Below are positions 1 through 10,502 of a DNA stretch of 64,000 bases, piece by piece. Source of the stretch: Candidatus Saccharicenans subterraneus. GTDB taxonomy: Bacteria > Acidobacteriota > Aminicenantia > Aminicenantales > Saccharicenantaceae. The notes beneath the pieces are model-generated. The model ran no database searches. It saw nothing but the letters and a program-made list of their open reading frames with translations, and had not been told where the DNA came from. The first letter of the stretch is position 1; every line of letters begins with the position of its first letter. A program made the translations under genes and the position numbers. The stretch covers positions 1-64,000 of the forward strand of contig QUAH01000009.1 in NCBI GenBank assembly GCA_003426165.1, in the 5' to 3' direction.

Positions 1-153
1 AAGTTGAGGATGGAACGAAAACTCCCCAGACTGGTGGCCTCGTTCCCGGTTATCCAGCTGGAAAAGCTCACCGACCTCTACCCAAAACTCTTCCCCCAAC
101 CTGGATACCATGTCTTAACCAACGACCGATTTTATCTCAGGCTTTTAAGCTGA
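1..153 (+). CDS. 3' end of an unidentified gene (partial)
   Basis: The frame is open from the first base to the TGA at 151-153, about 50 codons, so this would be the tail of a gene starting outside the window. The encoded end is basic, then Leu/Pro-rich, finishing YLRLLS, with a PGYHVLTND stretch before it. I do not recognise the family. Its base composition is closer to the GC-rich backbone than to the AT-rich genes that follow, so it may be the last resident gene before the island. It is also short enough to be chance. Confidence 0.4.
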   Translation, partial: KLRMERKLPRLVASFPVIQLEKLTDLYPKLFPQPGYHVLTNDRFYLRLLS

Positions 154-567
154 GGACTTCAAATCCCGGTTTATCAGCTAAAGATCAGAATTCAGCTATT
201 TTATTATGGTTTTATCCTTAGAGTGACCTAAGATCTTCATTCTCTTTATCTTCCAAGACTACGCCACATCCGCGTGCTTCTTAAATGAGGCTAGTTTCTG
301 TTGTGTACCTTAGGTTAGGAAGAACAAAATCTTTGATGTCTGTGAGCCTGGTGACCTGATAGATCCGATCAGCCGCATACCAACCGTTAAGAGGTCATCA
401 TGGCTTACCCTATTATGGGACAATTCAATCCCCAAACCGATGCCACGAATTTCAGTCGGACCTCTATGGTGTTCTATTCTTTGACTCCCTGACATTACAT
501 TAATAGGTTACAAACATCTGCATTGCCTGATTTATGCAATAGGAGTTTGGACTTTTGAGGACTTCAA
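151..567. repeat. 12-bp direct repeat pair, about 405 bp apart
   Basis: TGAGGACTTCAA occurs at 151-162 and again at 556-567. The flanks are also alike: CTTTT lies shortly before each copy and TCC shortly after, with small gaps, so this looks like a longer imperfect duplication. The first copy includes the stop codon of the partial gene at 1-153. It could be a scar of insertion or local duplication. Confidence 0.45.
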
Positions 568-760
568 TCCATAGTACTCTGCGCACAACGGCTTCCATTC
601 CTGCTCAAAGAGGAATTGTGCCCGACTGGGGCACTTGGCATAGAGAGAAGACCGGACGCGTTCCCTATTGACGCCAAGGCCGATATAGAAGTCAAAGAAG
701 TAATAGTCGTTTTCCTTGTTCTTAACGGGAATTTATCGATGACGGGATATATAGTATATG
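154..760. other. 607-bp stretch without an intact gene
   Basis: No intact gene is convincing here. The stretch holds the second repeat copy at 556-567 and a minus-strand coding fragment at 532-732. A minus-strand frame at 310-495 (61 codons) has no family hallmarks. It forms the left part of the AT-rich island. Confidence 0.5.
532..732 (-). pseudogene. start-less coding fragment, possibly a decayed mobile-element gene
   Basis: On the minus strand a frame of about 66 codons runs between two stops and has no ATG. Its product looks like a real protein end, rich in aromatic and charged residues (DYYFFDFYIGLG, then FLFEQEWKPLC), and finishes at a TAA (532-534 on the plus strand). I cannot name the family; a transposase remnant is a guess from its position at the island edge. 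A search of the translated fragment against insertion-sequence proteins would settle it. Confidence 0.3.
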
Positions 761-1552
761 TTAAATCTTCTTAATTTTGGGTGGATAAAATACTCCCAAA
801 ACAGTAAATATATCTCTAAATCTAAATAAATTCCCTACAAAAAATAGAACGTCATTATTTTCAATATTGGCAATTGACATCCATCGATTTTCAATCTTGG
901 ATAATAATGTTTGTTCATCTTGATAATTGCGTCTCCAATCACGGAAGGCTTGGTTAATTTCCCAATCAATTATTGCAAGTTCATGGCCAGGACAATTAAT
1001 TTCATCTTCGCATTTAAATTCATAATAAAATTTATATGGAATTTCTTCTATCGGCCTTTTTGCCTTATCGAATAAACTAGGCGATTTATAGCATTCGTCA
1101 TTTCTTTGTTTTGATCTTCTTTTTTCATAAGAAAATCTAATTCCCCTTGGCTTAATAATTCCTAAGGAAGTATTATTAATTTTTTCTTCTTTTAAGAGTT
1201 GGCAGAGAGTTTTTATGCTAATATCCTTAAGATATTGTTTTCTTCTTTCCCATTTATCTTCTGTATCAATATGTTCAATTATTTTAATTGAATCCGGATC
1301 TTGATATATTCGATAACTTTCTGGTCGGTGATCGTGTGGGTCTTTCGCACATTTAGCTTCGATTAAAGTATATTTTTTAAACATTTTATCTCTGGGAAGA
1401 TCTCGGTAATTGATAGGATAAATCCTAATTAGGCTAACAGCATCTATATCGACTCCTGCACAACACACAGTTTCGCCATAAGAAATACTTGGCGTAGGAT
1501 AGGCCTTTACAGTAATGAAGATTCGTTTTGGTTGGAAATCTAGTCTTCTCAA
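761..1552 (-). CDS. dual-OB-domain-like protein, partner of DUF488
   Basis: This 263-residue soluble protein resembles an uncharacterised family, remembered as dual OB domain proteins, that is often encoded beside DUF488 proteins. Visible hallmarks are KRIFITVKAYP at 9-19, GETVCCAG at 26-33, IRIYPI at 42-47 and RPESYR at 76-81. Its biochemical role is unknown to me; two OB folds would suggest nucleic-acid or nucleotide binding. The start is a TTG whose bases overlap the TGA of the upstream DUF488 gene (TTGA), and no ATG lies close, so translation is probably coupled. It is the last gene of a three-gene minus-strand run, with AT-rich codon use. Confidence 0.65.
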   Translation of the reverse strand: MRRLDFQPKRIFITVKAYPTPSISYGETVCCAGVDIDAVSLIRIYPINYRDLPRDKMFKKYTLIEAKCAKDPHDHRPESYRIYQDPDSIKIIEHIDTEDKWERRKQYLKDISIKTLCQLLKEEKINNTSLGIIKPRGIRFSYEKRRSKQRNDECYKSPSLFDKAKRPIEEIPYKFYYEFKCEDEINCPGHELAIIDWEINQAFRDWRRNYQDEQTLLSKIENRWMSIANIENNDVLFFVGNLFRFRDIFTVLGVFYPPKIKKI

Positions 1553-1992
1553 ATGTGTATTACGTCTATTTTTCTTCCATTATATAGTTTAATTTTTTCT
1601 GCAATTATTGAGCGATGGCAGTATTTAGCTGACCGCTCGAAACACATTAGGCAAGAAACCTTATCAAATAAATATTCATAAAGTTTTTCTATTGATTCGG
1701 GATTGTCTTCTATATGCTTTAAGTATCTTAAGAAAAAATTATGATAATTATTATCCCGCTTTAATTGATGCCTTATAGTTGATGGACTCCCTAATTCTTT
1801 CATATGAATATATTCAATATTATGCATTTCAAGGATTTTTCTCAGCTGAGATTTTGAAAAACCATTTTTCCTAGAAAGTGGTAATTCTCTTACATCTATT
1901 AATCTGGATATATTTAAAGTAGTTAAATATTGAATAAATTCAACCATGTCACGGCCTTCATAGCCAATTGTAAATAACTTTATCTTTCTCAT
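1549..1992 (-). CDS. DUF488 family protein
   Basis: The 147 residues show the DUF488 signature in order: TIGYEGR at 8-14, LIDVRELPLSRKNGFSK at 31-47, and LMCFE...YCHR..IA at about 115-131, where two Cys and a His are conserved. The enzymatic role of DUF488 is not established; the Cys/His cluster and Arg-rich front suggest nucleotide or nucleic-acid chemistry. The gene sits 27 bp after the DUF3800-like gene and overlaps the dual-OB gene by 4 bp. I see no Shine-Dalgarno before its ATG. Instead TATAAT (minus strand, 2000-2005) lies a few bases upstream, so a separate, nearly leaderless transcript is possible. Confidence 0.85.
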   Translation of the reverse strand: MRKIKLFTIGYEGRDMVEFIQYLTTLNISRLIDVRELPLSRKNGFSKSQLRKILEMHNIEYIHMKELGSPSTIRHQLKRDNNYHNFFLRYLKHIEDNPESIEKLYEYLFDKVSCLMCFERSAKYCHRSIIAEKIKLYNGRKIDVIHI

Positions 1993-2019
1993 GATTATTA
2001 TTATACAAGATTGTTTAAT

Positions 2020-2916
2020 TTAATTAAAAATTCTATTTTTTATTATATACCACATGCTATTATAAAAAGCTGGATCTTCTTTTTTGGGAGGAGCTATGGC
2101 GATGCCATAATTTAGATTATTTGGAGCACCATGTAATTTGCTTTTTATATTTCTGATAAATTCGTTGCCAATTCTCGCATCTTTACTCGAAAGGCCACCT
2201 TTCAATATATCCTTAAATGCGCCAGCGATTATATCTGTTATTTGAAGAACAGAACATTCATTCGTGCTAGAAAAAAATAGTGAATCGCTAAAGCCTAAGT
2301 CTTTTAAAGGCCCACATTTATATCTAACTCCATAGTTTGCAGATTTCCCATAATAGAATCCAGTCCTATATTCTTCTTCATATATTTCTTTATTACCTCT
2401 TTGTGGCCAATCAACGACGACTTCGGCCAAATATAAATTATTTTGCTTTATATAAAGACCGAATTTCATTAAGCAATTAGAAAAGGCGAATTGGATGACC
2501 TTATCTTTAGTTTTCTTTAAAGCATCTTTGTGTTTTGCGTGACATTTTATTATGGAAATAATAAACTTGAATGGAATGTTTTGTAAAATATCTGAAATCT
2601 GAGTCAGCCACGAGATGCGCTTTTTATGGAGTATATTATATAAATTAGTTTGATTATTTTCTTCATAATATCTTTTTAGATCACCAAAGCACCATTTAAG
2701 TGGCAAGTTGGGCATATTATTAAATGGACTTCTTATTTGTTCTTTTATACGCGATATTTCATTAAAGAGATTAACTAAAGATAAGTTATCAATAATTATT
2801 CCCGCAAAAACTATGCCATCTGGAATGTTAGATTTATTTATTGCCCATTCTGAATAATCAAGATACAAACTTGTCTTAACCGGATTATTATTTGAGAGAG
2901 AAGGCTCTTTTTTCAT
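2020..2916 (-). CDS. DUF3800-like protein
   Basis: The 298 residues open with LYLDYSE (17-23), which corresponds to the YxDESG acidic start of DUF3800 proteins, and near residue 225 carry VLQITDIIAGA, close to the family LQxADxxAGA motif. DUF3800 has been proposed to have an RNase H-like fold, so a metal-dependent nuclease is a reasonable but unproven guess. It leads the run DUF3800-DUF488-dual OB. The ATG at 2916 has only AGAGGG at short distance upstream. Codon use is AT-rich. The assignment rests on two short motifs. Confidence 0.6.
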   Translation of the reverse strand: MKKEPSLSNNNPVKTSLYLDYSEWAINKSNIPDGIVFAGIIIDNLSLVNLFNEISRIKEQIRSPFNNMPNLPLKWCFGDLKRYYEENNQTNLYNILHKKRISWLTQISDILQNIPFKFIISIIKCHAKHKDALKKTKDKVIQFAFSNCLMKFGLYIKQNNLYLAEVVVDWPQRGNKEIYEEEYRTGFYYGKSANYGVRYKCGPLKDLGFSDSLFFSSTNECSVLQITDIIAGAFKDILKGGLSSKDARIGNEFIRNIKSKLHGAPNNLNYGIAIAPPKKEDPAFYNSMWYIIKNRIFN

Positions 2917-2929
2917 CCCTCTATATTAA

Positions 2930-3005
2930 TTAAGAGGCGGAACACCACGATGAGCGTATATTACACATCTGGGGCGCGAGACTGAGCCCGGGCCTGCTAG
3001 CCTCA
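2930..3005. other. GC-rich patch between two AT-rich genes
   Basis: Between the DUF3800-like and TIR genes lies a short patch (GGGGCGCGAGACTGAGCCCG and following) whose composition matches the chromosome rather than the island. It has no frame of note. It could mark the junction of two separate insertions. Confidence 0.35.
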
Positions 3006-3461
3006 TTATTTGCCCTCCGTAGATAATAAAAATATTCCGACAAGAAGAAGTGCAAGAGTTAATATGTCACTGATAGTTTTTTCTTTTAGTTTTTTACCCA
3101 AATATTCAAATAATATTTTTATTGCATCCTCAGGTTTTTTTCTATCAAGCTGTAAATATTCTAAACCTTCAAGAAAAGCGGGTGGCCTAATTCCCTGTTC
3201 TACTATAGGGATAATTGGTATTTTACAACCTTTTGCGAAACCTATTTCCTGATTTATCCAATCTGATCCAGTGCCATTTCTCGTTATAAGAACGATAAGA
3301 TAACTGCTTGATTTAATATTTTTTTCAATTTTTTGGGGTAGGGGCTGTCCCAGTTGATAATCTTCAGATGCTATGTATACCTCACATTTTGATTTTATAA
3401 ACTCCTTAATTTTATTCGCCAATTCTAAATCTTTATGACTGTGGCTTAAAAAAACTTTCAT
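3006..3461 (-). CDS. TIR-domain protein with C-terminal membrane anchor
   Basis: The 151-residue protein is a TIR domain (about 1-125) followed by one hydrophobic helix at about 131-147. The TIR start is MKVFLSHSHKDLELA, the second strand segment is VYIASEDYQLGQ, and WxxxE is present as Trp68-Glu72, where Glu72 is the expected catalytic residue of NAD-cleaving TIR domains. Bacterial TIR proteins of this kind act as effectors of anti-phage systems by depleting NAD+ or making signal nucleotides; here that is inference. The ATG is preceded by AAGGAGG. It follows the membrane-protein gene by 193 bp, and the two may work together at the membrane. No recognisable sensor domain is fused to it. Confidence 0.85.
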   Translation of the reverse strand: MKVFLSHSHKDLELANKIKEFIKSKCEVYIASEDYQLGQPLPQKIEKNIKSSSYLIVLITRNGTGSDWINQEIGFAKGCKIPIIPIVEQGIRPPAFLEGLEYLQLDRKKPEDAIKILFEYLGKKLKEKTISDILTLALLLVGIFLLSTEGK

Positions 3462-3654
3462 TTTCCCTCCTTATTGAGGATTTCTAATTAGCCATATGAA
3501 AATTTCCCAGATGAGGATGTTCTTCATCTCCAGCCTCCATCCAGGCGCTTATTTTATATAAAAATCTTAAAAAATAACTAAGTTCTATATCTAAGAATCA
3601 TTGATTTATAAAAATGCACTTGACCTAAAATAGATATACCATATCAAGGTCATT

Positions 3655-4533
3655 TCAGAACCCAAATGGAGGGAATTTACGAGAAAATGAAAAAATGTAA
3701 ATCATAAGTAGTGCTAACCCCAGAACAAAATATATAAAAGAAACTATAAACATATTTTTGGATTGTTTGAATCTTGTTCTTTTTTCTATCCTATCAATTA
3801 TAATTAAAATATTTCCACTAGTATCTTCTCCATATTTTGCGTTTGACACTTTTAGAGATGGTTTTTTGCGAAACTTTATAGCTAAATAGCAAGCAAATAT
3901 TGAAAATATAATCAATAATATTCCCAAAAATATTAACTCTTTTCCTCGATGATTTATTTGTTTGGTCACTTGCATATTTACTGCTGATTGTCCAATAATT
4001 GCCCCTGATAGGGTGAGTTCAGTATCTGTTCCGCCCTCGATTATCACTTGTATAAGAGCCCCATCATTATGCTCTAATATTTTCCAACTAACCGGTATTT
4101 TCCCTTTTTCTAAATATTCTTCAGAGATTTTAAATTTAATAATATCGCGTGAACATTTTTGAATGCTCGCTTCGAGAATGCGAGTAGTTGGAATTGTCTG
4201 AATAACTATATCTTCAATTATGTCACTAGATAAGATAGGTAAGTTCCCTTTATTCCAAATAGCAATTTGGACGGCGGTAACATCTTTTAATATCTTATAT
4301 CCTTTATAACTCACTTCAAGTGGGGTCAATTTATTTGCCTGAACGATTGGTGTTTTTATAGGATAACACGAGTATGTGAGTTCTCGTTTTTTTATTCCCA
4401 TTAAGTAAAGGAAGATGCTCACAACTATTGCAAGAATGCCCACAATTAAACTAATAAAGCTCACAATAGGATTTGAAAAGAAATATTTTTTTCTGGATTC
4501 TATTTCAGGCTCAATTGTCTCTTCCTTTTCCAT
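3655..4533 (-). CDS. three-helix membrane protein of unknown function
   Basis: The 292-residue protein has an acidic start, a transmembrane helix at about 24-46, a soluble beta-rich region of about 150 residues, and two more helices near 200-220 and 262-284. The soluble region includes YKGYKILKDVTAVQIAIWNKG and an ILEASI segment. I know similar uncharacterised membrane proteins but no function. Between a nuclease gene and a TIR effector it could be a sensor or membrane partner, which is inference from position. AAGGAAC precedes the ATG. The spacer to the TIR gene (3462-3654) carries inverted repeats such as AGATGA...TCATCT but no gene. Confidence 0.75.
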   Translation of the reverse strand: MEKEETIEPEIESRKKYFFSNPIVSFISLIVGILAIVVSIFLYLMGIKKRELTYSCYPIKTPIVQANKLTPLEVSYKGYKILKDVTAVQIAIWNKGNLPILSSDIIEDIVIQTIPTTRILEASIQKCSRDIIKFKISEEYLEKGKIPVSWKILEHNDGALIQVIIEGGTDTELTLSGAIIGQSAVNMQVTKQINHRGKELIFLGILLIIFSIFACYLAIKFRKKPSLKVSNAKYGEDTSGNILIIIDRIEKRTRFKQSKNMFIVSFIYFVLGLALLMIYIFSFSRKFPPFGF

Positions 4534-4606
4534 TTTAACTGTTCCTTGTATTTATCCAGATTGTCACCATAATAAAGTATGTTTTCCATATAACTTATTT
4601 AGAGGG

Positions 4607-5401
4607 CTAATTTTCAGATGTTTCCGAAGATGCTTTTAATTCATTTACTTTTAATTGATCTGGGGATGTTTTTTCTTTCAGTTCTTTTTGATGCCATCTT
4701 CTTCTGCGTCTTTTTCTTTTTAGATTAAGATCAGCAAGATCTGCTAAAATATTTTTATCTAAAACATTTTTTAATTCTCGTGCAATTTCATCAATTTGGA
4801 CACGGACCTTTTCCCCCCTGTTTAATTCTCTGGCTACGGTTCTTAAGACTGAATCTGTAAATACTGCACGAAGCAATGAATTAGGATTGAGCAAGTTTAT
4901 CTTCTCCCAATGCTTATCAAGACTTCCTTTTATGAAATTATTTCGATGTAAAAGAGAAAATTTTGAAACCACCTCGTCTGGATTAGCCTCAAAGCTGGAT
5001 AATAAATCTGTCTTGAATACCACTGAACTTTCTATTCCCTCATCAGAAACTTGCATATGATATAAATGCCACTCACATCCATTAGTAAGGATTGCCCATT
5101 CTGTACCGTTTCTCATCGCATAGTTTTCTGCTTGCTGAATATGTTTTGATGAAAGCTTCACACCAGGTTGCTTTACTTCAATTAAAATTTGGACCTTTCC
5201 GTCTATTTTGATCGCAATATCACAATATTTATCTTTAATCTGGAATTCTTTGCTTATTTCTTTGAAAACATCATATTTCAATGCATCCTTAAGAAACTCG
5301 ACAATGTACATAACAACGTCTGCTTCTTTTTTATTGGTTTCTTGTGCAACCTTAAATATCTGCGCATAAGTGGAGAGCTTTTTCTTAAGTTCTTTGTCCA
5401 T
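4607..5401 (-). CDS. orphan type I restriction R-subunit-like nuclease (HSDR_N / PD-(D/E)XK)
   Basis: The 264-residue protein carries a PD-(D/E)XK nuclease core: Asp61 in DIAIK and Glu75-Val-Lys77 in ILIEVKQPG, followed by QAENYA and WAILTNGCEWHLY, all typical of the N-terminal nuclease domain of type I restriction R subunits and of stand-alone relatives. There is no helicase domain, no methylase and no specificity subunit nearby. The C-terminal 130 residues are helical and end with a basic patch (KRKRRRRRW). The ATG at 5401 is preferred over a TTG one codon earlier because GGAGGAATTG is correctly spaced for it. It is first in the island's gene order. Confidence 0.75.
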   Translation of the reverse strand: MDKELKKKLSTYAQIFKVAQETNKKEADVVMYIVEFLKDALKYDVFKEISKEFQIKDKYCDIAIKIDGKVQILIEVKQPGVKLSSKHIQQAENYAMRNGTEWAILTNGCEWHLYHMQVSDEGIESSVVFKTDLLSSFEANPDEVVSKFSLLHRNNFIKGSLDKHWEKINLLNPNSLLRAVFTDSVLRTVARELNRGEKVRVQIDEIARELKNVLDKNILADLADLNLKRKRRRRRWHQKELKEKTSPDQLKVNELKASSETSEN

Positions 5402-5762
5402 CAATTCCTCCTTTATTTTTTCGGTTCTTCAATGAACCTATTTAGGACCAGAATCACCCTTCTCCTTATCAGACAGGAATTATCGCCGTCTTCGTGATCT
5501 TTGATATAAATAATAATCTGTAAGTACTTTGACCTATCACAAGTTTGGCCATCACTAATTAGCTTGTATTATTTATAATGCATTAATCACTTTTTAAAAG
5601 TCAACTAGTTTATCTTAATTGTTATCATAGGGTTACAAAATGATAGCGTATTAGTTTTAGATTGGAATATCTTCTCCTGATACGCCAGGGATTGGGGACT
5701 CCTCGGGGGATGTCAAATTGAAAAGAAAATCGGGCTGTGTTATCCTGAAAAAGGAGATTTTG
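5402..5762. other. intergenic stretch at the right end of the AT-rich island
   Basis: No gene is supported here. A hairpin GGTTC-TTCAAT-GAACC (5423-5438) lies just upstream of the nuclease ribosome site on the minus strand. Composition stays AT-rich to about 5650 and then becomes GC-rich, which I take as the island boundary. Promoters for the divergent genes on both sides should lie here, but none is clear. Confidence 0.5.
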
Positions 5763-5996
5763 ATGACCGAAGAAAGAATCAAAGAAATTCTCCTTAAAAG
5801 CAATGAAACTTTCCGGAAAATTCACCAGGAACACCAGCAGTGCGAGCAGTCGCTGGACCGGCTGCGTTCCAAGTCGTTCCTGACCGAGGAAGAACGCCTC
5901 GAGGAGACCAGGCTCAAGAAGAAAAAATTGCGACTCAAGGATGAAATGTACCGGATGATCCTGGAATACGGAAAGCGGACTGGTGGTAATGAGTAA
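5763..5996 (+). CDS. DUF465 (YdcH-like) small helical protein
   Basis: A 77-residue, highly charged, helical protein with the DUF465 pattern: a central F/L-T-x-EE-R-L element (SFLTEEERLEETRLKKKKLRLKDEM) followed by a basic helix that ends soon after. The family is widespread and its function is not known. The ATG at 5763 is chosen because AAGGAG precedes it at good distance; an upstream TTG at 5718 has no such site. The stop overlaps the start of the next gene by 8 bp, indicating coupling. Confidence 0.75.
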   Translation: MTEERIKEILLKSNETFRKIHQEHQQCEQSLDRLRSKSFLTEEERLEETRLKKKKLRLKDEMYRMILEYGKRTGGNE

Positions 5997-7014
5997 GAAA
6001 GCCGAGCGGCAGCTGAGGGTGGCCCTGATCGGCACCGATTCCCTGCGGGCCCAGGAAATAAAGAACCTGCTTGGCGGCCGGAAACTGCCCATCAAATCGA
6101 TGGAGTTCTACGACCCGGAAGTGGCCGAGGAGTACAGCAAGCTGACCGAGTTCCGGGACGAACCTAAGGTCATCCATCATCCCTATCCCGAGCTGCTGGA
6201 GGGGTTGGACCTGGTTTTCCTGGCGGCTGACCGGGAAACCAACCGCAAGTTCGGAGAGCTGGCCCGGGAAAAGGGCTTCAAGGCCATCGACCTGGAAGAG
6301 AGCTTTGTCGACCGGCCGGAGGTGCCGCTGGTGGTGGCCGGGGTTAATGACCGTGTCCTGGCCGACCGGGAACTCAGCCTGGTGTCCAATCCCCACCCGG
6401 TGACCATTTTTTTGAGCCGGGTGCTGGCCGCCATCAGGAGTTCGTACCGGATAAAGAAGGCACTGTCGGTGGTGCTGCAGCCGGTTTCGGCCTATGCCAG
6501 CGCCGGCATAGAAGAGCTGGCCGAGCAGAGCTATGCCCTGCTTTCCAGTAGCAGCCTGAGCCACAAGGTTTTCGGGGAGCAGATAGCCTTCAATTTCCTC
6601 CCCGGGCTGGAGAAGGCCGACCGGGATGGATTCACGGCCAGCGAAAGCCAGATTATCCAGGAAGTCAGAAAGGTCATGAACCCGGACTTTGACTTCAGCC
6701 TGTCCCTGGTTCAGGCCCCGGTTTTTCACGTCTATTCTCTGGCCGTTTACCTGGAACTGGCTGAAGACGTGGGGCTGGAGGAGCTTCAGAAAACCTTCGG
6801 GAACAAGGATATTTTCCACTTTCAACCGGCGGGCTCGGCCCGACCGTTGTCCAATGTCAGGGTAGCCGGCCAGGAAAAGATCTTTGTCGGCCACCTGAAA
6901 AAGGACAGGTCCCTTCCCGGGAGTTACTGGCTGTGGGTGGCGGCCGACAACCTGACGGTCGGCTCAGCCCTCAACGCCCTGGAGATTGCCCGAAAACTAT
7001 TCGAACTGGATTGA
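5989..7014 (+). CDS. aspartate-semialdehyde dehydrogenase-like protein lacking the catalytic Cys (USG-1 type)
   Basis: The 341-residue protein has the two-domain layout of aspartate-semialdehyde dehydrogenases: an N-terminal NAD-binding segment (RVALIGTDSLRAQEIKNLL) and a C-terminal domain ending in an NVRVAGQEKIFVGH stretch that matches the family RVPV...GH region. At the catalytic site the expected SNPNCTTI reads SNPHPVTI, so the nucleophilic Cys is a Pro and the enzyme reaction cannot proceed as usual. It therefore resembles USG-1 homologues, whose role is unknown. The ATG at 5989 is taken; a GTG two codons earlier is possible. It overlaps the DUF465 gene and precedes yicC by 24 bp. Confidence 0.75.
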   Translation: MSKKAERQLRVALIGTDSLRAQEIKNLLGGRKLPIKSMEFYDPEVAEEYSKLTEFRDEPKVIHHPYPELLEGLDLVFLAADRETNRKFGELAREKGFKAIDLEESFVDRPEVPLVVAGVNDRVLADRELSLVSNPHPVTIFLSRVLAAIRSSYRIKKALSVVLQPVSAYASAGIEELAEQSYALLSSSSLSHKVFGEQIAFNFLPGLEKADRDGFTASESQIIQEVRKVMNPDFDFSLSLVQAPVFHVYSLAVYLELAEDVGLEELQKTFGNKDIFHFQPAGSARPLSNVRVAGQEKIFVGHLKKDRSLPGSYWLWVAADNLTVGSALNALEIARKLFELD

Positions 7015-7038
7015 ATTCACCGACAGGGAGAGTCGTTC

Positions 7039-7914
7039 ATGATACGCAGTATGACCGGTTTTGCCGAAAGGAACTTCACCGGGCCCGGGCTCAGGGTCAA
7101 GATATTCATCAAGACCCTGAATCACCGGTTTTTTGACTGGGTTTACAAGGGCGATAGCCTCGGCCAGCTGGAAAACCAGCTCCGGGCCGCCTGCCAGAAA
7201 AAAATAGTGCGGGGGCGGGTGGAGGTCGTGCTGGAAATCAATTATCTCTCGGCCGAGAGCTGGGAGTTCTCGGTCAACCGGCCCCTGCTGGAGAAAATCG
7301 TGGCCGAGATGAAGAGCCTGTCCAGGAAGGTGGGCCTGCCCATAGACCTGTCCCTGGAGCAGTTGCTCCGGGTGCCCCAACTGGTCAAGATCAACCAGAA
7401 GGAGTTGAGCCGGGAAGATAAGCGCTTTATCCTGGAAGCCTTCGAGAAGACGGTTGATGATATCGTCAGCCAGCGGGAAAGGGAGGGCCGGGAGATAGCC
7501 CGACATCTTAACGGGCACCTGGCCAGGATCAAGAAATCGCTGGCCGAGATCGAAAGGATTTTCAGCCGCCAGCCGGACCGGTTGAAGACCAAGCTGGCCA
7601 AGAAACTCAAGGACCTCAACCACAATAACCTGTCGGAAGAGAGGCTGTCGGAAGAGGTGGCCTACCTGATGCAGCGCTTCGACCTGGCCGAAGAAATCAA
7701 CCGGCTGAAGAGCCACCTGGGCGGTTTCTGCCAGCTGATCAGGCCGGAGGTGAACGAGCCCGTGGGCAAGAACCTGGATTTCCTGGCCCAGGAACTGTCG
7801 CGCGAGGCCAACACCCTGAACTCCAAGGCCCAGGACCTGGGCATCATCAAGCGCTGCCTGAAAATCAAGAACGAAATCGAGAGCATCCGGCAGCAGGTGC
7901 AGAACCTGGAATAG
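7039..7914 (+). CDS. yicC: YicC family endoribonuclease-like protein
   Basis: The 291 residues start MIRSMTGFAERNF and end with IESIRQQVQNLE, both classic for YicC. Internal landmarks are LNHRFFDW near 30, the RVEVVLEIN strand near 63, and the C-terminal block FLAQELSREANTLNSKAQD. YicC proteins are reported as endoribonucleases linked to small-RNA turnover and stationary-phase growth. The gene precedes gmk, the usual bacterial neighbour. A GGGAG lies upstream of the ATG. Confidence 0.93.
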   Translation: MIRSMTGFAERNFTGPGLRVKIFIKTLNHRFFDWVYKGDSLGQLENQLRAACQKKIVRGRVEVVLEINYLSAESWEFSVNRPLLEKIVAEMKSLSRKVGLPIDLSLEQLLRVPQLVKINQKELSREDKRFILEAFEKTVDDIVSQREREGREIARHLNGHLARIKKSLAEIERIFSRQPDRLKTKLAKKLKDLNHNNLSEERLSEEVAYLMQRFDLAEEINRLKSHLGGFCQLIRPEVNEPVGKNLDFLAQELSREANTLNSKAQDLGIIKRCLKIKNEIESIRQQVQNLE

Positions 7915-7960
7915 GGCCGCGGAAATAGATAAAATCGGCTGAAGAAGGGAGGCCTGAAGG

Positions 7961-8566
7961 ATGATATACGTGATTTCCGGACCGTCGGGTTGCGGCAAAT
8001 CGACCCTGATCAAGAACCTGATGGCCTGCCTGCCGGGTCTGCAGTTTTCCGTTTCTCACACCACCAGGCCCAGGAGGCCGGACGAGGTCGAAGGACGGGA
8101 CTATTATTTCATCGGCCGGGAAAAGTTTGAGGAAATGAGGGAAGGCGGTGCTTTCCTGGAATGGGCCGAAGTCCACGGTTACCTTTACGGGACTTCCCTG
8201 GCCGAGGTGAATGAGAAGAGCCGGCAGGGCGACCTGATCCTGGACATCGATGTCCAGGGTGCCCACCAGGTTAAGAAAAAGCTGGACGAGGCCAGGTTCG
8301 TGTTCGTGGTGCCCCCTTCTTACCCGGAGCTGGAGAAAAGGCTGAAGCAGAGGCAGACCGATACGCCCGAGGCCGTGGCCATTCGGCTGAAGAATGCCCG
8401 ACGGGAAATCCTGGAATCGAGCATTTTCGACTACTTGGTGATAAACGGCGACCTCAACCAGGCCCTGGAAGAATTGAAGGCCATCGTCCTGGCCCACCGC
8501 TGCCTGTTCCAGCGGCGGCAGAAGGAATTCCGGGAAATATTGAAGAGCTTTAAGTCCTGGCCCTGA
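7961..8566 (+). CDS. gmk: guanylate kinase
   Basis: Phosphorylates GMP to GDP with ATP in the cytoplasm. The 201 residues carry the P-loop GPSGCGKST at 7-15, the GMP-binding TTRPRRPDEVEGRDYYF segment near 35-51, and the FLEWAEVHGYLYGT region, all at normal positions for the usual length of about 200. It follows yicC by 46 bp and is followed by coaBC after 18 bp. The small rpoZ gene that commonly lies between gmk and coaBC is missing. Confidence 0.96.
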   Translation: MIYVISGPSGCGKSTLIKNLMACLPGLQFSVSHTTRPRRPDEVEGRDYYFIGREKFEEMREGGAFLEWAEVHGYLYGTSLAEVNEKSRQGDLILDIDVQGAHQVKKKLDEARFVFVVPPSYPELEKRLKQRQTDTPEAVAIRLKNARREILESSIFDYLVINGDLNQALEELKAIVLAHRCLFQRRQKEFREILKSFKSWP

Positions 8567-8584
8567 CCGGGGAAAGGTGGAGCG

Positions 8585-9784
8585 ATGAAAAAAGTAGCCC
8601 TTGGCGTCAGTTCCTCCATAAGCATCTACAAGGCCTGCGAGGTAATCCGGCTGTTCCAGTCGGAGGGTCTCGGGGTCCGGGTGATCATGACCGAGAAGGC
8701 CACCCGCTTCATCCAGCCCTACCTGTTCACCTCGCTGACCGGCGAGAGAACCATCGTCGAACTTTTTGACGACCAGCAGCGACCGATCGAACACATCTCT
8801 CTGGTGGACGAAATATCGCTGCTGCTCATCGCCCCGGCCACGGCCAACATCATCGGCAAGCTGGCCTCCGGTGTGGCCGACGATTTCCTTTCAACTTTCT
8901 ACCTGGCGGTCAAGTGCCCGGTGCTGGTGGCCCCGGCCATGAATGAAGCCATGTTTCTCCATCCTCAAACTCAGGAAAACATCCGGAAATTGAAAGCCCA
9001 CGGCGTGGAATTTGTCGAACCCGACACCGGCTACCTGGCCTGCGGCAAGAAAGGCCCGGGCCGGCTGGCTTCGCCCGAGACCATCGTTCACCACGGTCTC
9101 AGGCTCATCAAGAGCCGCGAGCCCTTTCGCGATAAAGTCTTCCTGGTGACGGCCGGTCCCACCCGGGAATTCCTGGACCCGGTTCGTTTTGTCAGCAATC
9201 CCTCCTCGGGCAAAATGGGCTACGAGCTGGCCCGTGAAGCCTGGCAGCTGGGGGCCGAAGTCATCCTGGTTTCCGGGCCGACCGGTCTGGAAGCCCCGGC
9301 CGGTGTCTACCTGGAAAGGGTGAACACGGCCGAGGAGATGAGGGAGGCGGTCCGCAAGCATTATTCCCGGGCCGACGTGGTGCTGATGGCCGCGGCCGTG
9401 GCCGATTTCCGGTTCAAGAAAACGTTGCCCGAAAAAGCCAGGAAAGCCGAAATTGGACAGTCCCTTCAAATCGAACCCACCCCCGATATCCTGGAGGAGC
9501 TGGAGCGGCAGAAGCAACGGCAGTTGCTGGTCGGATTTGCCGCTGAAACCGGCCGGCTGGGGGAGAGGGCGGCTGAAAAAATGAAGAAGAAAAAGGTCGA
9601 CCTGATGGTCGGCAACGATGTGTCCGGGCCCGGGGTCGGTTTTGCCAGCGACGAAAACGAGGTGGTGCTGTTCTGGCCGGACGGCCGTTCCAGGAAAATT
9701 CCCCGGATGAGCAAGAGAAAAATTAGCCAGGAAATAATGGCCGAGATAGAGGTTCTCTTAAATGAACGAAAAGGAAAAGATTGA
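8585..9784 (+). CDS. coaBC: bifunctional phosphopantothenoylcysteine decarboxylase / synthetase
   Basis: Catalyses two steps of coenzyme A synthesis. The N-terminal flavin-dependent CoaC half (about 1-180) shows [16 protein letters not shown], the EHISLV histidine, PAMNEAMF and [11 protein letters not shown] with the catalytic Cys. The C-terminal CoaB half starts at [25 protein letters not shown] and continues to [15 protein letters not shown]. The 399-residue length is normal. AAAGGTGGAG precedes the ATG. Its 3' end overlaps the glycosylase gene by 23 bp. With coaD at 18.4 kb, two CoA steps are encoded in this window, in separate operons. Confidence 0.96.
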
Positions 9785-10502
9785 TAGTCGGCAAGAGTTG
9801 AAGGCCCGGCTGGAGTTCTTCCGCGACCTGGGAGTTGAGTTCCTGGTGAGCCCTAGAAAGAAGGCCGGGAAGAGCCAGACGGCTGCGGTCGAGAGCCCGC
9901 TGCTGATAGCCGGAGGCTTTTCTGGTGGGCCGGCCACTGCCGACAGTGAAGAGTGGGAGCGGCTGATCCGCAAGATCATGTCCTGCCAGGCCTGCCCCCT
10001 TTTTAAGGGCAGGACCCAGGCCGTGCCCGGTGAGGGGAACCGGCAGGCCAAATTAATGTTTGTGGGCGAGGCCCCGGGCCGGGATGAAGACCTGCAGGGC
10101 AGGCCGTTTGTCGGCCGGGCCGGGCAGCTCCTGACCAAGATTATCCAGGCCATGGGTTTCAGCCGGGACCAGGTCTACATTGCCAATGTCATCAAATGCC
10201 GGCCACCTGAAAACCGCACGCCGCGGCCGGACGAGGTCAAAGCCTGCTCGCCCTACCTCCTCCGGCAGATAGAGCTGATCAAGCCCAGGGTCATAGTGGC
10301 CCTGGGGAAGGTGGCCACCGATTTCCTTCTTCAGAGCCCGAAAAGCATGTCCGAGCTGCGCGGGAACTTCGGCGAGTTCCAGGGCATCCCGGTCATGCCG
10401 ACCTTCCATCCTTCTTACCTCGTCCGGAATGAGGGAAACAAAGAGATCAAGAAAATGGTCTGGGAAGACATGAAGAAAGTCCTCAAGCTGCTTGAATCCT
10501 GA
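9762..10502 (+). CDS. family 4 uracil-DNA glycosylase (4Fe-4S)
   Basis: Removes uracil from DNA. The 246-residue protein has a low-complexity N-terminal 70 residues, then the family 4 core: CQACPLF with two iron-sulfur cysteines, GEAPGRDEDLQGRPFVGRAGQLL (uracil pocket), VIKCRPPENRTP and ACSPYL supplying the other two cysteines, and HPSYL near the end. Family 4 enzymes are frequent in thermophiles but not limited to them. The gene starts inside coaBC and its TGA shares one base with the priA ATG, so all three are likely co-translated. Confidence 0.93.
   Translation: MNEKEKIDSRQELKARLEFFRDLGVEFLVSPRKKAGKSQTAAVESPLLIAGGFSGGPATADSEEWERLIRKIMSCQACPLFKGRTQAVPGEGNRQAKLMFVGEAPGRDEDLQGRPFVGRAGQLLTKIIQAMGFSRDQVYIANVIKCRPPENRTPRPDEVKACSPYLLRQIELIKPRVIVALGKVATDFLLQSPKSMSELRGNFGEFQGIPVMPTFHPSYLVRNEGNKEIKKMVWEDMKKVLKLLES

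Follow-up and report, generated by a model that had tools for sequence, protein, structure and literature searches.

The DUF488 gene and the dual-OB (DuOB) gene located near the start of the window, by which we mean the whole stretch of 64,000 nucleotides analyzed in this study, almost certainly constitute a real functional unit, and judging from their sequences the locus is a copy of PDC-M19, an already catalogued candidate phage-defense pair. The DUF3800 gene directly upstream is most likely a chance neighbor in a rapidly changing part of the genome. The pair itself is a widespread unit that stays together from archaeal plasmids to actinophages despite changes in gene order, and its biochemistry is worth testing; the failure of the link to DUF3800 removes a misleading clue to its function.

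Gene organization and conservation of the pair

All three ORFs are intact and encoded on the minus strand. The DUF3800 gene (2020..2916, 298 aa) has its stop at 2020 and is separated by a gap of 27 nt (1993..2019) that is devoid of a terminator-like site from the DUF488 gene (1549..1992, 147 aa, ATG at 1992), which corresponds to PDC-M19A of PADLOC. The dual-OB gene (761..1552, 263 aa, TTG start), the counterpart of PDC-M19B, is nearest to the window start, where position 1 is the first base of the contig, and shares with the DUF488 gene the stop-start overlap TTGA (1549..1552), in which the DUF488 stop codon TGA overlaps the dual-OB start codon TTG. The three ORFs, the 27-bp spacing and the overlap were all present as an initial annotation of this DNA had described them. 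Promoter scanning detected 13 sites with 25 expected by chance, and three terminator-like sites were found with 2.6 expected, which argues neither for nor against separate transcription.

The same annotation regarded DUF488 and dual-OB proteins as frequent neighbors, and the wider comparison bears this out, as 31 of 35 other loci distributed over bacteria, archaea, plasmids and phages have a DUF488 gene (A2 profile) next to the dual-OB gene. Of these 35 loci with a dual-OB match, 14 are from genomes of the same phylum, 19 from plasmids, one from a phage and one from a viral contig, including two closely similar Rhizobium plasmids (L034 and L063) and four loci with flanks shortened by contig ends (L016, L017, L023 and L064). 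The four loci without a DUF488 neighbor were L055 (pSOG2), L058 (Natronococcus), L062 (truncated DuOB) and L067, the latter being a pseudogene remnant in which no DuOB ORF was found either. Kept outside the count were L001-L014 and L039-L043 (the window locus itself or shorter versions of counted loci), L038 (genome of L018), L052 (phage type of L028), the plasmid matches H11 and H14-H17 and the phage matches H26-H31.

Among the 32 pairs, window included, 16 were arranged in tandem with DUF488 first, 14 were convergent and two were in tandem with DuOB first. Since adjacency is kept despite this changing orientation, we consider it strong evidence of joint function that does not need an operon. 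The nearest relatives of the window pair are L018 (57% and 58% identity) and L019; a 4-nt overlap of tandem genes was observed in the window, L018, L019 and L024, and the dual-OB gene of L018 and L019 also has a TTG start. A genome of the same family that carries the pair is a Candidatus Aminicenantes MAG (phylum Acidobacteriota), which gives the placement of the organism.

Mobile elements are well represented among the carriers. The dual-OB protein was detected on 24 plasmid records, 11 of them typed as conjugative, and several plasmid copies of the pair are located among metal-resistance or plasmid-maintenance genes. In a Nymphadora-type Gordonia phage (L028:4989-6427) the two genes are convergent (gp43 and gp42, both annotated as hypothetical), adjoin the immunity repressor gene and lie near the integrase. 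A viral contig (L053:2071-3860) has a DUF488 fusion and a dual-OB gene flanked by genes whose translations were read as terminase-like and portal-like. The viral_contigs collection contained no relatives of the dual-OB, DUF488 or DUF3800 proteins of the window, and searching it with DuOB queries from two other loci yielded one locus each. Sequence search of the PDB returned no meaningful match.

Predicted properties of the two proteins

The DUF488 protein matched Pfam PF04343 (1.5e-28, 100.3 bits, cut-off 22.2), was just above the cut-off of DUF488-N3a (28.8 bits vs 27) and was recognized by the PDC-M19A models PDLC04505 (2.7e-41) and PDLC04504 (6.6e-28) of PADLOC-DB. Residues C117, E119, C125, H126 and R127 were invariant across the 11 aligned DUF488 sequences (alignment A2), and we take the residues of this C...E...CHR pattern to be catalytic. 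The DUF488 fold belongs to the rhodanese/phosphatase superfamily. Burroughs and Aravind are said to have treated a RapZ-C-DUF488-DUF4326 clade in 2023, for part of which nucleic-acid end processing in conflict systems was reportedly predicted. A plasmid of Saccharolobus shibatae (L032:3936-5861) encodes a ParB_N-HTH_ParB-DUF488 fusion directly upstream of its dual-OB gene. A DUF488 protein is also named on Methanoperedens plasmids in PMC9674854.

The dual-OB protein matched the PDC-M19B model PDLC04508 (1.4e-60), and no Pfam model, DuOB (PF22557) included, was found for it at E<=1. Its orthologue in the same-order genome L019 scores 31.7 bits against Pfam DuOB, above the cut-off of 27, and the L018 orthologue reaches 17.1 bits. 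The initial annotation had proposed fold prediction for this protein, and an AlphaFold model based on a four-sequence alignment (mean pLDDT 79.3) displayed OB-type strands and resembles OB proteins that bind single-stranded DNA. The best Foldseek match, over the full length, was baculovirus LEF-3 (E 1.6e-4, TM 0.34), an ssDNA-binding protein. With VIA-align, residues 1-111 resembled telomere end-binding protein alpha (Z 8.1), RecO (Z 7.8) and SSB-like proteins, and residues 110-262 resembled Teb1 OB-C and RMI1-RMI2 (Z 6.8). The model thus suggests two distinct OB-type halves, most of whose matches bind nucleic acid, in agreement with the Pfam name of the orthologue, on whose DuOB match this reading leans because the Z scores (6.6-8.1) are middling and the tool warns that values of 7-8 are common.

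A variable island at the contig start

The GC content ranges from 28 to 44% as far as position 6,000 or so and from 57 to 62% beyond it. DNA in common with seven genomes of the same genus begins at 5,406 in one of them and at 5,705-5,715 in the other six, and is followed by a conserved housekeeping run read from the translations as asd, yicC, gmk and coaBC. Given this sharp GC step, and because synteny breaks down upstream of roughly 5,710 in all seven comparisons, we assign the three genes to a variable, AT-rich island. Its further genes encode a small stand-alone TIR protein (3006-3461; TIR_2 2e-17, ThsB-like models, hydrophobic stretch at the end), a membrane protein (3655-4533) and an HSDR_N protein (4607-5404). 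A ThsA-like partner for the TIR protein was not present among the six island proteins scanned.

Two segments at the borders of the three genes are shared with the same-genus genome G348 (locus L093): a non-coding or decayed segment (128..698, 75% identity, unstranded), which forms the left flank of an apparently exchangeable slot, and an intergenic segment (2905..3015, unstranded; retained over 2909-3011 at 78% identity) that is single copy in each genome. The 2.2 kb between these segments in G348 are occupied by five small unrelated ORFs and not by the trio. An integron-type cassette was considered for the GC-rich spacer 2905-3015 and rejected: of 19 genomes only two contain the element, each as one copy, and the single-strand fold of the window copy is no better than that of shuffled sequences. 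Related open pieces at 532-732 (-) of the window and L093:4814-5062 (-) look like what is left of one decayed gene, on the left of the hotspot in both genomes; apart from a weak DUF6538 match below cut-off they had no Pfam match.

The initial annotation had asked whether the genes lie in a defense island. Inspection of the window (TIR and HSDR_N) and of the two nearest relatives, which are on chromosomal contigs with the L018 pair adjoining type I R-M genes and the L019 pair adjoining an HSDR_N/ATPase protein, speaks for such a setting, whereas a crude comparison over nine loci showed no clear enrichment. At a PADLOC threshold of 1e-12, 109 families were matched by 89 neighbor proteins of nine pair loci vs 47 families by 87 control proteins, these being mostly many models matching one protein. 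The controls, nine further regions of the contigs that carry these pairs, also matched PADLOC families (PDC-M19A once), and in G064 a mere 7 kb or so separates the control stretch from the pair. Pair neighborhoods were therefore not clearly richer in defense genes than control stretches.

Possible roles of the pair

DNA or RNA is the probable target of the pair, for which we suspect an anti-phage or anti-plasmid role. The reading we consider moderately probable is that of a known nucleic-acid-acting conflict pair, with the dual-OB protein as the binder, the DUF488 protein as the enzyme acting on the nucleic acid of invading elements and DUF3800 as separate cargo. The dual-OB protein would bind single-stranded or end-containing nucleic acid and deliver it to the DUF488 protein, a presumed cysteine-dependent enzyme that would alter the nucleic acid or its ends, to the disadvantage of incoming phages or rival elements. 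The DUF3800 gene would have landed upstream as separate cargo that may share transcription with the pair and would not be needed by it. The pairs of Gordonia phages and the viral contig, together with the plasmid records that carry dual-OB, fit a mobile conflict module. For the nucleic-acid processing that the initial annotation had put forward, the predicted OB folds of the dual-OB protein make a role plausible; the inclusion of DUF3800 in a three-gene cassette was not supported.

Much of the same evidence could be read as pointing to a module for plasmid or prophage upkeep (partition, replication or end repair) instead of defense, a reading we regard as less likely. The abundance of dual-OB on plasmids, nearly half of them typed as conjugative, the fusion of DUF488 to ParB_N and HTH_ParB in Saccharolobus and the proximity of the Gordonia phage pair to integrase and immunity genes all agree with upkeep, as does a CTP-binding archaeal fusion of a ParB-type fold with DUF488-HTH described in PMC12704722; the location of several plasmid copies among metal-resistance or plasmid-maintenance genes likewise makes such a role possible. 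Pairs are also found on chromosomes, beside type I R-M genes in L018 and an HSDR_N/ATPase protein in L019, which speaks against it.

The upstream DUF3800 gene

Identification of the 2020-2916 product as a DUF3800 protein, on which the initial annotation had relied, held marginally, with a match to Pfam PF12686 of 3.3e-4 and 21.8 bits vs a cut-off of 21. D20 and D228 align with other members of the family, and for the C-terminal Q..D motif the protein has LQITD, which carries D228. A single-sequence AlphaFold model (pLDDT 32) was uninformative on an RNase H-like fold. Such a fold is predicted for DUF3800, together with a link to Cas12a2, in PMC10910872, and PMC11701678 lists DUF3800 RNA families. 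In window positions 1-10000, Rfam detected no RNA family at the gathering score, DUF3800-type families included; three matches below that score were discarded as implausible.

The annotation had also described a coupled three-gene cassette that includes DUF3800, and examination of gene neighborhoods elsewhere went against it. No relative of the window DUF3800 was found beside the pair in any of the 35 other loci, the nearest relatives L018 and L019 among them (phmmer and an eight-member profile run on ORFs). When PF12686 was searched over 24 genomes or records that carry the pair, DUF3800 was near the pair in none, and each of the eight DUF3800 sites detected in six of them lay on a different contig or at a distance above 500 kb. 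Within the phylum, 57 DUF3800 sites were present in 51 of 297 genomes, and the only one adjoining a dual-OB match is that of the window. None of the other loci examined had DUF3800 next to DUF488, and a limited literature search retrieved no paper on both families. The single relative of the window DUF3800 detectable in the 297 genomes was a 28%-identical paralogue of its own genome, and plasmid and viral collections contained no relatives at the sensitivity used. DUF3800 somewhere in the genome was more frequent in genomes with DuOB (5 of 11) than in others (46 of 286; Fisher p 0.025 without correction for genome size), an excess that might stem from genome size or from a rich mobilome.

The paralogue (L025, contig 12, 7974-8867) lies among genes that encode a large methylase-like protein, a helicase-like protein of 1747 aa and a DUF4143 ATPase, the last being the only one checked against Pfam. 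From these two loci we infer that this type of DUF3800 may be a general passenger of defense-like islands.

A single three-gene system, in which DUF3800 adds an RNase H-like nuclease to DUF488 and dual-OB in this lineage, is accordingly improbable in our view. It could draw on the shared strand, the 27-nt gap and the absence of a terminator-like site between DUF3800 and DUF488, but same-strand adjacency is weak evidence for it because six genes of mixed type share one strand in this region. Ties of DUF3800 domains to nucleic-acid systems elsewhere, according to PMC10910872, would also suit it. The strongest support for a block of three comes from the slot in G348, where other genes replace the trio between the two shared segments, as would be expected if it had been swapped as a unit; this is one comparison, and successive insertions fit equally. 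The more specific version, marginally less probable again, would have DUF3800 recruited as the nuclease arm of PDC-M19, with the dual-OB protein finding a DNA or RNA end, DUF488 modifying it and DUF3800 cutting, and the trio moving as a 2.2-kb block between conserved hotspot flanks. Against a three-gene system stand the 35 other pair loci, the 57 DUF3800 sites of the phylum and the plasmids and viral contigs, among which the arrangement or a relative was not encountered apart from the window's own site. We therefore regard the position of DUF3800 beside the pair as incidental, a lineage-specific association being less likely.

Comparison with known systems

That the pair represents a toxin-antitoxin system in which the dual-OB protein restrains the DUF488 enzyme is highly improbable: a small two-gene module with overlapping genes carried by plasmids and phages would suit it, but order and orientation are variable, 14 of the 32 pairs being convergent, which makes joint dosage control hard, and the library scans revealed no toxin or antitoxin family above curated cut-offs.

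Measured against known forms of DUF3800, the window protein has DYS where the DES motif of PF12686 is expected, DES being present in four of the seven other aligned members. The form linked to Cas12a2 in PMC10910872 has a TPR domain, whereas the window DUF3800 had no TPR match. Relative to Pfam DuOB, the cut-off is passed by the L019 orthologue, and the window protein itself has no score at E<=1.

The closest correspondence is to the PADLOC candidate system PDC-M19, a name encountered in no paper during a limited literature search. The window DUF488 is a short form covering positions 148-294 of the 294-position PDLC04505 model; it is missing the N-terminal region present in the DUF488 proteins of L015, L017, L024 and L053, which in the alignment amounts to an extra, unassigned stretch of about 140 residues in the first three. 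Both window proteins nevertheless match the two models of PDC-M19 and their genes lie side by side, the DUF3800 gene upstream being a further difference of the window locus.
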